From the NCBI GenBank assembly GCA_031275465.1, contig JAISOT010000058.1:1-33100 (forward strand): a stretch of DNA of 33,100 bases, in the 5' to 3' direction. The notes beneath the pieces are model-generated. The model saw only the letters and a list, made by a program, of their open reading frames with translations. It was not told the origin of the DNA and searched no databases. Shown piece by piece: positions 4,632 to 13,133 of the stretch. This DNA comes from Desulfovibrio sp. (lineage in GTDB: Bacteria > Desulfobacterota > Desulfovibrionia > Desulfovibrionales > Desulfovibrionaceae). Numbering within the stretch: the stretch's first letter is position 1; every line of letters starts with the position of its first letter. The translations under genes were made by a program, and so were the position numbers.

Positions 4632-6185
4632 GTGAAAACCATGTTCCTTCACAACAAAGGGAAACCCTGCTGCCTGGCCGCGCTGGCCTGCCTGTGTTTT
4701 TCCCAGGTTGTTGCCGTCTCCGCATCGGATATCGGCGCCGCTCCGGCGCAACCCAAAACGGTTGTGCTCTCGCCGGACGCCGGACGATTTTTTGTTGAAG
4801 AACGGGGCAAAGTCGTCGCAAAAGACGGCGTAAGCCTTGTCGTTTTTGACATCCCCAACGGCGCTGACGGCCTGCGGATTGAAATTCCCGGACAGCAGGC
4901 GGCGCATTGGACAAGCGCGGCATTGCGCCGTGACGCCGGGGGCGAAGCGGCGCGGTCCCGCGAGGCCCTGCTGGCGGAAAAGGCGCGACTCATCGGACAA
5001 CGCGAGGCCGCACGCGCGCGTACCGCCCTGTGGAAGCATATTCCGGAACAGGGAATTCCCGTTCAGGATCTGGAAAGTCACGGCACGCGCATGACGGAAG
5101 CGATCGTCGCGTCGGTTGCCGATGAAGCCCGGATACAGGGCGATCTTGAGGCGCTGGAACAGGTTCTTGCTCTCCTGCCGGAAAGTTCCCCGGTCTGGCG
5201 GCGCGTGACCGTGACGTTGCGAAAATCCGTTTCGGGCGTCGACGACCTGCCGGTGCACTACAGCTACACCCTTCACAATTGCGGCTGGCGGCCGGTATAT
5301 GCCTTTGACGCCATTTCGGAAAAGGACGAAATCGCGGTGCGCCTGCTGGCTGAAATCCGCCAGTTCACAGGCATGGACTGGAGTGATGTGAAATTGGTTC
5401 TCGCCTCCCGCGGGCCGGGAATGCTGGAGCCGGCAAGCCTGCCCCGCTGGGAGGTGGGATCTTCCGCTGGTCTGGCGCCGCAACAGACGCGGCTGCAAAG
5501 GCCGCCGCCCGCCGATGCGCGACCTAAGCCGGCCAGAATGGCGGCTCCCGCAAATATGCCGGCGCAGGCGGACGCTTCAGGCGCGTATGCCTCCTGGAGT
5601 TTGGCGACGCGCGCCCTGCCGGAAGGGGTTTCGCGTCTTGTCATTGATGAGGATGTCTGGAAAACACCCTTGCGGTGGCTCGCGCGCCCCCTGCAGGGAG
5701 ACAGCCGCGTCTGGCTGACGGCGAAATGTGCGCCGCGAGGGAATAAAATCTGGCCTTCAGGCGGCGCGGAATACAATGTGGACGGCCAGTTTCTGGGCCA
5801 GGGCGTTTTCAGGCCGCAGGGCGGTTCAGCCGATCTCTTTTTCGGAGCGGACCCCAGAGTGAGCGTCGTCACCACGGCGGACGACAAAAAACGGGGGGAA
5901 AGCGGTTTTATAGGCAAAAACCGCACCTGGTTCTGGTCGTGGACGTTTACTCTGCACAATGACCACGACCGGCCGGTGAATGTGCGTCTGGAACACCCGG
6001 AACCCCTGATCGTGGAGCAGTCGGTTGAAGTGAAATACCAGGACAGCCTCCCCGCCAAAAGAGACGAAAAAAATCACGCGCTGTTCTGGGATATCGCGGT
6101 GCCCGCAAAAGGCAAGGCCAACCTCAGCCACGCCATAACCATTACAGCGCCCAAAGATTTGCCCCTCTCGCCGGTGGCTCCCTGA
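4632..6185 (+). CDS. DUF4139 domain-containing secreted protein
   Basis: Signal peptide-like N terminus, VHYSYTLHNCGWRPVYAFDA, and C-terminal KNRTWFWSWTFTLHNDHDRPVNVRLEHPEP...VKYQ...LFWDIAVPAKGKANLSHAITITAP, consistent with the DUF4139/MuiA-like family. Confidence 0.7.
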   Translation: MKTMFLHNKGKPCCLAALACLCFSQVVAVSASDIGAAPAQPKTVVLSPDAGRFFVEERGKVVAKDGVSLVVFDIPNGADGLRIEIPGQQAAHWTSAALRRDAGGEAARSREALLAEKARLIGQREAARARTALWKHIPEQGIPVQDLESHGTRMTEAIVASVADEARIQGDLEALEQVLALLPESSPVWRRVTVTLRKSVSGVDDLPVHYSYTLHNCGWRPVYAFDAISEKDEIAVRLLAEIRQFTGMDWSDVKLVLASRGPGMLEPASLPRWEVGSSAGLAPQQTRLQRPPPADARPKPARMAAPANMPAQADASGAYASWSLATRALPEGVSRLVIDEDVWKTPLRWLARPLQGDSRVWLTAKCAPRGNKIWPSGGAEYNVDGQFLGQGVFRPQGGSADLFFGADPRVSVVTTADDKKRGESGFIGKNRTWFWSWTFTLHNDHDRPVNVRLEHPEPLIVEQSVEVKYQDSLPAKRDEKNHALFWDIAVPAKGKANLSHAITITAPKDLPLSPVAP

Positions 6186-6259
6186 CGGCCGGGCGCGAAA
6201 AACAGGAAATCCCGTCTTGCGCAATAAGGCGGCGCGGCAAAAAATTGCGGTTCAACCCT

Positions 6260-6694
6260 TCAGGTTTCCCGGCATGTTGCGCGCAGCAACTCGCCGGCCA
6301 CGAAAATACCGTTTACTCCAGCCTCGCAGGCAATACGCGCAAGTTCATCCAGCTTTTCAGTCCGCAGCTTGAAAACTTTCAACAGCATCGGCAGATTGAC
6401 GCCTGTCACCACCTCCAGCTGAACATGGTTGCCGAGCAGGGAAAGAGCAATGTTGGCGGGCGTGCCGCCGAACATATCGGTGAGAATAATCACTCCGGCC
6501 CCTTTGTTGAGACGGGTTACGGCGTCATCCAGACGGCGGACAATTTCGGAGACTTCGTTCTCCATGGTCACGCTCATGGAAGTGCAGTCGCTGAGCGGGC
6601 CAAGAACGGCTTCCGCGGCGCGCAGCATGGCCGAACCGTAATCGGCGTAAGAAACGATGACAATTCCTACTTCTGTCGTGTCTTTCTCAGCCAT
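6260..6694 (-). CDS. Orphan PTS EIIA, mannose/fructose family, with the expected active-site His replaced by Tyr
   Basis: VGIVIVSYADYGSAMLRAAEAVLGP...GAGVIILTDMFGGTPANIALSLL...VTGVNLPMLLKVF is diagnostic of EIIA-Man. The T-H-(G/A) motif reads S-Y-A. Confidence 0.87.
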   Translation of the reverse strand: MAEKDTTEVGIVIVSYADYGSAMLRAAEAVLGPLSDCTSMSVTMENEVSEIVRRLDDAVTRLNKGAGVIILTDMFGGTPANIALSLLGNHVQLEVVTGVNLPMLLKVFKLRTEKLDELARIACEAGVNGIFVAGELLRATCRET

Positions 6695-6730: not shown

Positions 6731-7675
6731 TCAGCCCAGTTCAAGATGTCTGTGCTCCAGCGAAACAGGATAATCCGCCTGACGAAGCGTCTGCGCGATT
6801 TCCTCGGCCATGGCCACGGAGCGATGCCGCCCGCCGGTGCAGCCTACAGCAACGGCAACGCGGTAGCGGCCTTCCGCTTCCATCATGGGAAGCATGAAGC
6901 AAAGCAGATCATTCAACTTTCTGGAAAATTCCACCGCTTTCTCCGTGGCGAAAACATAGTCGGAAACAGCTTTATCCTTGCCGCAAAGCGGGCGTAATTC
7001 CTCAATAAAATATGGATTTGGAAGAAAGCGCAAGTCAAAGACAATGTCCGCCTCGCGAGGGACGCCGTATTTGAAGCCAAAAGATATCACGTTGACGCGC
7101 ACGGCGCGCAGTTTGCTGTGATGGCCGCTCCAACGTTTCTGTATGGCTCTGCGCAAATCATGTACGGAAAATTTTGTGGTATCAATGATTATATCCGCCA
7201 GCTCCCGCAGAGGAGTCAAACTTTCACGCTCAAGCATGAGCGCGGCCTCCAGGCCCATGCCTTTGCGCTCCAGGGGATGGGGTCTGCGCGTTGTGGCGTA
7301 GCGGCGGATAAGCTCCGGCGTCAGGGCCTCCAGAAAGATCAGCCAGGACCGGATGCCCCGCTCGCTCAAAACGGACAAGGCTTCATTTATTTCGCCGAGA
7401 AAATTGCTTTGCCGCATGTCCATGCCCAAAGCAATGCCCTTGAAATGCGACATGGGATGGAGCTTCATCATATCCGCCATTTCAGGGGCAAGGTTGGCCG
7501 GCAGGCCGTCCACGGTAAAATAATTCAAATCTTCAAAGACTTGCAGAGCCGTACTTTTGCCGGCCCCGGAGAGCCCGGTGACGATGCATGCCCGCATCCC
7601 GGTCTGCTCCGCGCCCGCTTCCCGACAACCATCATCAGGCTTTGCGGAGCGGGAAGATCCGGATGAAACTTCCAT
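6731..7675 (-). CDS. rapZ: RNase adapter protein RapZ / P-loop nucleotide-binding protein (start could be 7597)
   Basis: Walker A CIVTGLSGAGKSTALQVFEDLNYFTVDGLP, YATTRRPHPL, FGFKYGVPREADIVFDLRFLPNPY, C-terminal VGCTGGRHRSVAMAEEIA. Confidence 0.95.
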   Translation of the reverse strand: MEVSSGSSRSAKPDDGCREAGAEQTGMRACIVTGLSGAGKSTALQVFEDLNYFTVDGLPANLAPEMADMMKLHPMSHFKGIALGMDMRQSNFLGEINEALSVLSERGIRSWLIFLEALTPELIRRYATTRRPHPLERKGMGLEAALMLERESLTPLRELADIIIDTTKFSVHDLRRAIQKRWSGHHSKLRAVRVNVISFGFKYGVPREADIVFDLRFLPNPYFIEELRPLCGKDKAVSDYVFATEKAVEFSRKLNDLLCFMLPMMEAEGRYRVAVAVGCTGGRHRSVAMAEEIAQTLRQADYPVSLEHRHLELG

Positions 7676-7686
7676 ACGGTCGACGG

Positions 7687-8226
7687 CTACAACACGGGAT
7701 CAATCAGGGCGTAACCGCCCGCCCGTCTGCGGTAGACGACATTGACGCGGCTGCTTTCCGCGTTGAAAAAGACGAAAAATTCGCTGCCTATCGCGTCAAG
7801 CTGCATAATGGCTTCGTCAACATGCATGGGTTTGGAAGCGAAACGATCAGTGCCCTGAACGGACGCGCCTTCTTCCGCCTGCACGTCAAGATTCCAGGTA
7901 AAGACGTCAATGTCGGCTCTGGCCGTTTTGCGCCTGTGCTCCTTGACGCGTGAAACCTGGCGTTTGATTTGGGATTCCACCTTGTCGGAGACCAAATCTA
8001 TGGCCGCATACATGTCGTTGCTCTGCTCGGAAGCGTTGATGTGCAGCCCCTCGCCTGTAACCGTCACTTCACAGCGATGGCGGAATTTGTCCACTATAAG
8101 AACGACGCTCATATCAAGCCCGGAGGATTTTCCATAAAAACGCTCCAGTTTTTCCATACGGCGGCGCGCATATCTTTTAAGGTGTTCGGACGGTTCAAAA
8201 TTTTTAAAGGCAAAAGAGATGTTCAT
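7687..8226 (-). CDS. hpf: Ribosome hibernation promoting factor, long form
   Basis: MNISFAFKNFEPSEHLKRYARRRMEKLERFYG...DMYAAIDLVSDKVESQIKRQ plus C-terminal domain PMHVDEAIMQLDAIGSEFFVFFNAESSRVNVVYRRRAGGYALIDP. ATG at 8226 preferred over 8295. Confidence 0.93.
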   Translation of the reverse strand: MNISFAFKNFEPSEHLKRYARRRMEKLERFYGKSSGLDMSVVLIVDKFRHRCEVTVTGEGLHINASEQSNDMYAAIDLVSDKVESQIKRQVSRVKEHRRKTARADIDVFTWNLDVQAEEGASVQGTDRFASKPMHVDEAIMQLDAIGSEFFVFFNAESSRVNVVYRRRAGGYALIDPVL

Positions 8227-8254
8227 ACAATTCTCCTTGAGCATTTCCTGATTC

Positions 8255-9685
8255 TCAAAAATGTTTCTTGCGTTTTGATGAAGACGGGATATCAAGCGCT
8301 GTCCGGTATTTTGCCACGGTACGGCGGGCGATGTTCACCTGAAGGGCTTCCTTGAGCATCTCGGCGAGCCGTTCGTCACTCAGGGGCGTACAGGGATTTT
8401 CCTCCGAAATAAAATTTTTTATCAGAGCTTTTACACTTTCGGAGGCGACCTGATTGCCGTCTTCCAATTCAAGGCCGCTGTTAAAGAAGAACTTTAATTC
8501 AAACATGCCGTGGGGCGTTGCCGCGTACTTGTTTGTGGTTATGCGGCTGATTGTGGACTCATGCATGTCGATGTCGTCCGCGATATCTTTAAGGATCAAA
8601 GGAACAAGCTTTGTAATGCCGTGCTCAAAAAATTCCCGCTGCTGCCGGACAATGCTCTCCATAACTTTGTAGAGCGTGCGCTGTCGTTGTTGAAGGCTTT
8701 TAATCAGCCACGAAGCCGCGCGTATTTTTTCGTTGCAGTATTCTTTTTCCTTTTCCGAGGAATAGTTGATTTTTGCATCACACAGCGAGGAAAGGCGCAA
8801 CTGCGGCAAATCTTCATCATTCAGCAGAATTGCAAATTCATCATCAATCTTGTAAACATATACGTCGGGGCTGATATACACGGGATCGCCGCCGCCGAAA
8901 CTCGCTCCCGGCAGAGGATCAAGGCTTTGTATAATGCTCAGATACTCCTTCAAATCTTCAAAATCCAGCCTGAATTTTCGTAAAAGCGGCTTGTAGCGCC
9001 TGGCTTCCAAGTCCCCCAGATGCGACTGGACAAGTTCAACGAGAACAGGATCGCGATCATATCCGAGGTTTTTAATCTGGATGAGCAAACATTCTTTCGC
9101 GTCATGCGCGGCAACGCCAACCGGATCAAACAGCTGAACGCGCTCAAGCACGTGGAGCGCTTCTTCAGGCGTTGAAGATGTCAACTCGGCGATTTCTTTG
9201 AGGGAGGCCTGCAAATAGCCGGAAGAGGAAAGATTGCCTATAATCGCCTCGCCAATGCCTTTCTGTGTCTCGTTCATGGCGGAAAGACGCAATTGCCAGA
9301 GCAGATGGCTTTCCAGCGTCGGCTTTGCGGCATATCTGGTTTCAAGAGGGGCAATGTCGTCAGGAAGTTCCGTTTCGTGCCTCTGGGAAAGACGGGGGGT
9401 GCTCGCAAATTCGCCGAGGTAATCCTCCCAGTCGGCGTTGCGGTTCAGCTCCCTGCCATACGCATCATCATCCGTGCCGTCACGGCGGAGATCTTCAACA
9501 GTTTCACTGTCAACGCCGTCTTCCGGGGGGCCTTCTTCCAGAAAGGGGTTTTCCTGGAGTTCCTGCTGCATTGTTTCCAGAAGCTCCAGACGGGAAAGCT
9601 GCAGCAATCTGATGGCCTGTTGCAACTGCGGCGTCATGAAAAGCTGCTGATTGAGTTTTAATTGCTGACGAAGTTCCAGTGCCAT
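8255..9685 (-). CDS. rpoN: RNA polymerase sigma-54 factor
   Basis: MALELRQQLKLNQQLFMTPQLQQAIRLLQLSRLEL N terminus and RpoN box ARRTVAKYR near the C terminus. Confidence 0.96.
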   Translation of the reverse strand: MALELRQQLKLNQQLFMTPQLQQAIRLLQLSRLELLETMQQELQENPFLEEGPPEDGVDSETVEDLRRDGTDDDAYGRELNRNADWEDYLGEFASTPRLSQRHETELPDDIAPLETRYAAKPTLESHLLWQLRLSAMNETQKGIGEAIIGNLSSSGYLQASLKEIAELTSSTPEEALHVLERVQLFDPVGVAAHDAKECLLIQIKNLGYDRDPVLVELVQSHLGDLEARRYKPLLRKFRLDFEDLKEYLSIIQSLDPLPGASFGGGDPVYISPDVYVYKIDDEFAILLNDEDLPQLRLSSLCDAKINYSSEKEKEYCNEKIRAASWLIKSLQQRQRTLYKVMESIVRQQREFFEHGITKLVPLILKDIADDIDMHESTISRITTNKYAATPHGMFELKFFFNSGLELEDGNQVASESVKALIKNFISEENPCTPLSDERLAEMLKEALQVNIARRTVAKYRTALDIPSSSKRKKHF

Positions 9686-11372: not shown

Positions 11373-13133
11373 TCAACTTTGTTTACGGGGCGCGGTACGG
11401 CTGAAAGCGGCATCAAAATACTTGCCTATTCCGTATTCACTGCGGCGAACAAAAAGCCGCGGCTCAGGACCTATGATCTGCATCTCGCGGTTTTTTGCCT
11501 GCATTTCCAAGGCAATGCGCATTTCCTTGGTACATCCGGTTGAATATGTGGAATCCATCCCCTGCCACAAAGTCGGAACCTTGGAGTTGAGCAGGGCAAA
11601 GCTTTCCTCAATATCTTCCACGGTCTGAAAACGCCAAATGTCTATATACCCGCTGCGCTGTACCCGTTCCCACATGAACATGAGATCATCACCGTCCATC
11701 CCCTCCACAAAATGCTCAGCAGGATTGATTATGTACATATTATCCATTTTTTTTCTCAAATTGTCCACAAAGACGCGGGCCAGGGAAATTGCCGTGGCCG
11801 TCTGGCCGGGGATGCTGCCGATGATGCAACTGTAAAACATTACTGATTGTGAGTTCAGGCGAGCTTTGCGCATTTTTTCAACAATGGCGTCAGACTGCAT
11901 TATTATGTCGTTTTCATTGAATTTACGCGCGGCGGCAACGTGTTCGCGAAGCTGAACGTGAAAACCTCTCTCATCATGCCAGTAACATATGATGTCTCTG
12001 GTAAATTCATGACTCGTCCCGAGCAGGATATCCGCCGCGCGCCAGCCTTTGCACAAAATAATGTCCGCCTCTTTCCAGGCTCTGGAAAACGTGACGGAAA
12101 CACGGGTAAGATTCAGTCGTTCACGTGTTCCGTCTGAAACAACCATGAGGCGGTATTCACGCAGATAACGCAATAGTTCGTTTTTACTCAAATTCTTTTC
12201 CTGCAGAACAATGCCGTTGCGCAGCCACCGCATCAGGGTTTCATCTGTTGCCATGTCCGTTATGGTGGGCGCGAAAAAATAAAACCCGGCCTTCACAGCG
12301 CAAATTACCCTGTGCCCCATGCGTATGAGCTTCTGAAGCATGGCGAGATCAAAAACAATTCCCCCGTCGGCATCAACGAGAAAAAGAACCGTGGCCGGAC
12401 GGCTGATGCGGCTTTCCACATCTTCCCTGATCCGAAGCACGGCTTTTTCCGCGGTCAACATCGTGCTGCGTATTTCGTGCGCTGGAGGAAGACGTTTCTG
12501 CCATTCCCTCGCCATGGCGGACAGGCATAAAAAACGCGTCAGTTCAAGGTAATCCAGCAGATGACGGGCCTGGTTCATGCCACACGGCAATTTCCAGCGG
12601 GGCATGCGCTCAAGGTTGCTTTTGATGTCGGGAAGCTCCAGTATCTCCTGCTGACGCAGACAGGAGGCGGAGCGCCGGTCCTGCCAGGGATCATCCAGAC
12701 CGCTCTGGGCCAGCACAAGATTGGTCATGCGTTTGACGAGACGCGAGGGGATGAGCGTACGCTGCGCGATGTGCTGGGCAAACCGATACCGACAAAAATG
12801 CAACACGCGTATGCGGTCCCGACGATCCGGGATGAAGGAACGAACCAGGCGGACGACAATCCGCCAGGCGCGGTTGTACTGTTTTTGCAGTTCGCCGTGC
12901 AGGCGTTCCGTGTGCAGCATGGCGAACGTGGCGTCGGAACAGGGCAGATAAACCTGGGGATCCTCCAATTGGAGCATAAAGGCCATCTGTTCCGGGCTGG
13001 CAATGAATTCAGGATTCATTTTCCAGGCCAGATTGTTATCCATCATCATGCTGTAGAGCCAGGCGTCAAAATACACGTCCTCGCCCAAACGGATGTCAGC
13101 CGCGCGGAGGGGAGGCAGGAATCTTTTTTTCAT
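11373..13133 (-). CDS. Diverged DUF89 / ARMT1-like domain protein
   Basis: LFLVDADGGIVFDLAMLQKLIRMGHRVICAVKAGFYFFAPTITD...ADIILCKGWRAADILLG resembles the DUF89 core (lDNaGEivfD ... adliisKGqgN), with altered motif residues. Confidence 0.55.
   Translation of the reverse strand: MKKRFLPPLRAADIRLGEDVYFDAWLYSMMMDNNLAWKMNPEFIASPEQMAFMLQLEDPQVYLPCSDATFAMLHTERLHGELQKQYNRAWRIVVRLVRSFIPDRRDRIRVLHFCRYRFAQHIAQRTLIPSRLVKRMTNLVLAQSGLDDPWQDRRSASCLRQQEILELPDIKSNLERMPRWKLPCGMNQARHLLDYLELTRFLCLSAMAREWQKRLPPAHEIRSTMLTAEKAVLRIREDVESRISRPATVLFLVDADGGIVFDLAMLQKLIRMGHRVICAVKAGFYFFAPTITDMATDETLMRWLRNGIVLQEKNLSKNELLRYLREYRLMVVSDGTRERLNLTRVSVTFSRAWKEADIILCKGWRAADILLGTSHEFTRDIICYWHDERGFHVQLREHVAAARKFNENDIIMQSDAIVEKMRKARLNSQSVMFYSCIIGSIPGQTATAISLARVFVDNLRKKMDNMYIINPAEHFVEGMDGDDLMFMWERVQRSGYIDIWRFQTVEDIEESFALLNSKVPTLWQGMDSTYSTGCTKEMRIALEMQAKNREMQIIGPEPRLFVRRSEYGIGKYFDAAFSRTAPRKQS

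Follow-up and report, generated by a model that had tools for sequence, protein, structure and literature searches.

Gene organization of the EIIA-Man locus

The window, the whole 33,100-nucleotide stretch of a Desulfovibrio sp. contig that was analysed, contains a gene for an EIIA-Man protein, which is the last gene of an rpoN-hpf-rapZ cluster on the same strand and is located 36 bp behind rapZ. The features of this locus are as follows.

6186..6259, minus strand: site at which relatives carry EIIB (PF03830) and EIIC (PF03609-like) genes, both of which are gone here
6260..6694, minus strand: orphan EIIA-Man gene (PF03610) with Tyr16 replacing the phosphorylated His (evidence: ORF, Pfam, alignment, AlphaFold2, and Foldseek)
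6647..6649, minus strand: Tyr16 codon, TAC (in relatives, the His codon CAT or CAC)
6731..7675, minus strand: rapZ, directly upstream of the EIIA gene
7687..8295, minus strand: hpf/raiA, ribosome hibernation factor of the same cluster
8255..9685, minus strand: rpoN (sigma-54), the first gene of the conserved cluster

Beyond the EIIA gene, a convergent DUF4139 gene ends at position 6185. The order found in relatives is rpoN-hpf-rapZ-EIIA-EIIB-EIIC, which is the ancestral order. The original prediction described the gene as standing alone without EIIB, EIIC, or EIID; none of these three adjoins it, but the gene is not isolated, because it terminates the rpoN-hpf-rapZ cluster. Elsewhere in the window (11373-13133, minus strand), a large protein whose N-terminal 230 residues match nothing shows a weak partial match, just above the cut-off, to PF01937 (ARMT1-like damage-control phosphatase).

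The EIIA-Man ORF starts with an ATG at position 6694, runs to 6260 on the minus strand, and encodes a single-domain protein of 144 amino acids (144 codons) that matches PF03610 with a score of 76.2 bits (curated cut-off, 21.4 bits). Its AlphaFold2 model (mean pLDDT, 90.4) displays the EIIA-Man fold, and the best Foldseek matches among solved structures were 3lfh (E, 1e-11), 1vsq, and 1pdo (TM, 0.80/0.89). In the alignment to solved EIIA-Man proteins, the segment VIVSYADYG corresponds to the VIxxHG motif, and Tyr16 occupies the position of the phospho-acceptor His10 of Escherichia coli. The remainder of the active site, namely Asp73, the GGTP motif, Asn81, and Asn100, is retained, as are all fold residues that, the His position apart, are invariant across 96 sequences. 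Asp73, Thr78, Asn81, and Asn100 are equivalent to E. coli Asp67, Ser72, Asn75, and Asn96, the functional roles of which have been described (PMC7587183). The replacement of the phosphorylatable His by Tyr and the otherwise intact EIIA fold signature were thus both predicted correctly.

A relocated active-site His was ruled out, as the alignment shows no other His near the site. A sequencing or assembly error was also ruled out as the source of Tyr16, because three more genomes (G122, G002, and G027) carry the same Tyr with differing silent changes around its codon and two others (G008 and G137) carry Thr. HPr-to-EIIA-Man phosphotransfer is impossible without His10. Because the phospho-acceptor His has been lost and no EIIB/C/D adjoins the gene, canonical phosphorylation of the window protein, which had been predicted to be impossible, almost certainly does not occur.

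Distribution of the active-site substitution

The comparison set consisted of 68 genomes of the genus Desulfovibrio with an orthologous EIIA gene, and the window protein is 57-85% identical to the native orthologues. At residue 16, His was found in 62 of the 68 genomes, Tyr in four (G000, which is the window's genome, G122, G002, and G027), and Thr in two (G008 and G137). His is kept in 91 of 96 rows of diverse EIIA-Man proteins. All orthologues with Tyr or Thr are confined to one clade of seven genomes (G000, G122, G121, G002, G027, G008, and G137; support, 100/99-100) in a tree built on RpoN, RapZ, and HPF, in which G122 is the closest relative of the window's genome and G009 and G035 together form the sister group of the clade.

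The clade comprises gut-associated Desulfovibrio related to termite-protist symbionts, including Desulfovibrio sp. Pc512_bin104 (G121), Md513_bin41 (G027), and Hs463_bin8 (G008), with shrinking genomes of 1.4-2.6 Mb. G137 is a single contig of 1,410,056 bases that probably represents Candidatus D. trichonymphae, and G035 in the sister pair is Candidatus D. kirbyi ZnDsv-02. G121 keeps His and sits among the Tyr genomes at a poorly resolved branch position, and a single His-to-Tyr event was neither rejected nor supported (p-AU, 0.153). With His in 62 of the 68 genus orthologues, the change to Tyr or Thr is derived and specific to this lineage. A further residue of the pocket has changed throughout the clade: residue 29 is Ser or Ala in all seven genomes, whereas 52 of 53 other orthologues have Phe, as does the sister pair. 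Its equivalent in E. coli, Met23, is a pocket-lining residue in contact with HPr (PMC7587183).

Stepwise loss of the native PTS

No man-type EIIB (PF03830) was found in the whole assembly of the window's genome, and EIIB is absent from all seven clade genomes and from the sister pair. Six of the seven clade genomes lack both native HPr and the EI N-domain; four of these six are 93-99% complete. The genome search proposed along with the original prediction did detect HPr and EI in the window's genome, but only one copy of each, both non-orthologous to the native proteins and encoded in a galactitol-type cluster. The PTS was dismantled in the order EIIB/EIIC, then HPr/EI, and then the active site, and the His substitution is the last step of this stepwise loss.

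Several other genomes present partial sets of these components. In G035 (L214), HPr is present and the EI N-domain was not found, and this genome is possibly an intermediate stage of the loss. In G009, G006, G108, G109, G110, G111, and G135, HPr and EI are present, EIIB and EIIC are absent, and the His is kept; by analogy with alphaproteobacteria, their EIIA-Man would be a terminal phospho-acceptor.

The galactitol-type cluster of the window's genome (contig C200; L005 and L220) contains its own EIIA-2, EIIB, and EIIC genes in addition to those for HPr and EI. Its EI and HPr are 37 and 31% identical, respectively, to one native Desulfovibrio pair, while native Desulfovibrio EIs are 53-77% identical among themselves. 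No close relative of its EIIC was found among 287 other genomes of the family, and the cluster is present in no sister genome. Misbinning of the contig is unlikely, because C200 also encodes a DsrK-like Fe-S/CCG-domain protein, HslU, and a manganese pyrophosphatase that are 76-88% identical to Desulfovibrionaceae proteins, and the cluster is therefore more likely to be an import. The EIIA-2 of this galactitol PTS is the sole PTS_EIIA_2 protein in the genus, being confined to the window's genome; therefore, ptsN is not part of the rpoN cluster here.

A second clade with a different active-site change

HPr, the EI N-domain, and EIIB are also missing from a second, separate clade (G114, G115, G116, G118, and G023; L159-L163), two members of which are listed as 100% complete. 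Their EIIA proteins keep the His but carry Asn instead of Thr78, the position of E. coli Ser72. Asn78 was found nowhere else in the 96 diverse sequences, in which Thr or Ser is otherwise invariant at this position. In E. coli, Ser72 positions the phosphoryl group, and a Ser72Cys protein has less than 6% of its activity left (PMC7587183).

Residue 16 or 78 is changed in 11 of the 13 genomes without native HPr and EI and in none of the 55 genomes scored as PTS-bearing (including G010, a 63% complete genome in which EIIB is present and HPr and EI were undetected). The two exceptions that retain both His and Thr are G121, from the first clade, and G032, another genome without HPr and EI. This correlation between PTS loss and active-site change is suggestive and does not amount to statistical proof, because just two independent HPr/EI losses lie behind it; a phylogenetic sign test, having two independent pairs only, had no power.

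Selection on the EIIA gene

The dN/dS (omega) values of the EIIA gene between His-less genomes are 0.10-0.19, similar to those of rapZ in the same genomes, and amino-acid changes are far fewer than expected under neutrality (P, 2e-6 to 2e-73). The values are nevertheless higher than those in most PTS-bearing pairs (0.007-0.07), and the ratio of EIIA to RapZ p-distances is 1.16 here versus 0.64 in PTS-bearing genomes. The constraint on EIIA is thus relaxed but not gone, i.e. purifying selection is weaker than in PTS-bearing relatives. The non-transport part of the predicted non-transport regulatory role is sustained by this purifying selection without a native PTS; the regulatory part is a matter of probability and is taken up below.

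The chief rival explanation is slow decay, in which EIIA, its relay gone, would persist in the rpoN operon as a functionless passenger still awaiting deletion, with the Tyr as the first visible damage. Both measures of relaxed constraint, as well as the shrinkage of the clade genomes, are what such decay would produce, but the reading frame is open in all seven clade genomes at pairwise dS values of up to 1.4, and only 24 amino-acid-changing differences separate the genes of G000 and G122, for which approximately 102 would be expected if they were neutral. Moreover, the 1.4-Mb genomes have shed much else and yet retain EIIA, and every other invariant fold residue is in place. Decay therefore appears unlikely, and EIIA has very probably been retained for a function that is independent of phosphorylation.

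Association with rapZ

Gene neighbourhood and co-occurrence suggest RapZ or sigma-54 as a candidate binding partner. In GTDB genomes, rapZ is directly upstream of the EIIA-Man gene in 53 of 80 loci, and this arrangement is found in Acidobacteriota, Alphaproteobacteria, and Myxococcota as well as within the genus Desulfovibrio; in several phyla, the two genes are paired without rpoN or hpf nearby (within the DNA retrieved around the loci). Of the genomes compared, 67 encode EIIA along with the RapZ C-domain, 10 encode neither, one has EIIA alone, and one has RapZ alone, although the physical linkage of the two genes weakens this co-occurrence, as the co-absences may partly reflect single deletions or missing contigs. 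Of the discordant genomes, G032 has EIIA without RapZ at a contig end, while G031 (L219) has kept rpoN-hpf-rapZ and lacks EIIA-Man, and is the one clear exception to co-occurrence in the genus.

Known systems provide a precedent for such an association. In enterobacteria, the EIIA-Ntr (PtsN) encoded in the rpoN operon binds GlmS, and RapZ controls glmS (PMC5024086); unphosphorylated EIIA-Ntr binds several targets (PMC5024086, PMC13104625). RapZ is the first candidate partner because EIIA-Ntr and RapZ of one operon both act on GlmS.

It is probable, in our judgement, that EIIA-Man has been kept after the loss of the relay as a regulator that is never phosphorylated and is linked to RapZ or to the rpoN operon. 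The window protein is the orthologue of the EIIA-Man of the Desulfovibrio rpoN operon; EIIB and EIIC, and then native HPr and EI, were lost in the ancestry of the clade; and the phospho-acceptor His was replaced afterwards. The protein may then act through binding in its permanently unphosphorylated state, most likely in the pathway of its neighbour RapZ, i.e. in the control of the supply of glucosamine-6-phosphate and envelope precursors. The assignment to the RapZ pathway, which draws on the analogy with EIIA-Ntr, is plausible but falls somewhat short of probable. A wider possibility, which we advance tentatively and with greater doubt, is that the rapZ-linked EIIA-Man of many phyla is primarily a subunit or regulator of RapZ with a phosphorylation-independent basic function that the PTS only modulates, because the PTS-less clades retained the protein after losing the relay and disabling the phosphorylation site on two occasions by different changes.

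Alternatively, the pocket may have been re-used, with the Tyr or Thr (or Asn78) creating a site for a ligand or protein in a function unrelated to RapZ, e.g. with HPF or sigma-54. Different residues of the same pocket have changed in the two clades, and rpoN and hpf are also members of the cluster, but rapZ is the gene most strongly linked to EIIA, by co-occurrence as well as by direct adjacency, and it also pairs with EIIA where rpoN and hpf are not nearby; we therefore consider this explanation rather unlikely.

Two further explanations involve the imported HPr. In the first, the protein is still a phospho-switch, with Tyr16 phosphorylated by a tyrosine kinase or another residue phosphorylated by the HPr of the galactitol PTS. 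The window's genome does encode HPr and EI, and Asp73 is kept, but G122, G002, and G027 have the Tyr without HPr or EI, so the Tyr either arose before the import or has nothing to do with it; Thr in G008 and G137 indicates that the replacement need not be a Tyr, and the HPr-contact residue Phe29 has been lost. Such a switch is very unlikely. In the second, a non-phosphorylatable EIIA was selected because it avoids cross-talk with the HPr of the incoming PTS; the restriction of that PTS to the window's genome would agree with this, but three HPr-less genomes (including the closest relative) already carry Tyr, and this succession of events on the tree makes it highly improbable.

Comparison with known EIIA systems

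The EIIA-Man domains of sugar PTSs (the A domain of E. coli ManX, 1pdo/1vsq, and the Streptococcus pneumoniae protein, 6FMG) share the fold and the equivalents of Asp67, Ser72, Asn75, and Asn96 with the window protein, which differs in having Tyr for His10, in its location in the rpoN-hpf-rapZ cluster, and in the lack of adjacent EIIB and EIIC genes. ManX of the alphaproteobacterial PTS-Ntr is a terminal phospho-acceptor without EIIB and EIIC (PMC13104625). It resembles the window protein in being a stand-alone EIIA-Man, it has a regulatory rather than a transport role, as is probable for the window protein, and rapZ or HPr genes are often adjacent to it; however, it keeps the His and is phosphorylated by NPr/PtsO, whereas the window's genome has neither the His nor native HPr and EI. 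EIIA-Ntr keeps the same operon company (rpoN, hpf, and rapZ) and binds proteins, mostly in the unphosphorylated state, but belongs to the PTS_EIIA_2 family and has a working phosphorelay, and its phosphorylation raises GlmS binding. The native Desulfovibrio rpoN-hpf-rapZ-EIIA-EIIB-EIIC module contains the direct orthologue, with the same upstream order, and differs from the window's genome in possessing the His, EIIB, EIIC, and native HPr and EI.

EIIA-Man without EIIB and EIIC is therefore already known from alphaproteobacteria. What appears to be new is the retention of an rpoN/rapZ-linked EIIA-Man with a disabled active site after the full loss of native HPr and EI; a literature search of limited coverage, which is weak evidence, yielded no report of an EIIA without a phosphorylatable His and, for RapZ together with EIIA-Man, one review. 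In genomes that retain EIIA without EI, HPr, and EIIB and with a changed phosphorylation site, a role independent of phosphorylation can be told apart from the relay, and the clade reveals the sequence of steps by which a PTS was taken apart. The Tyr, Thr, and Asn78 proteins are natural unphosphorylatable variants that can be used in binding assays.
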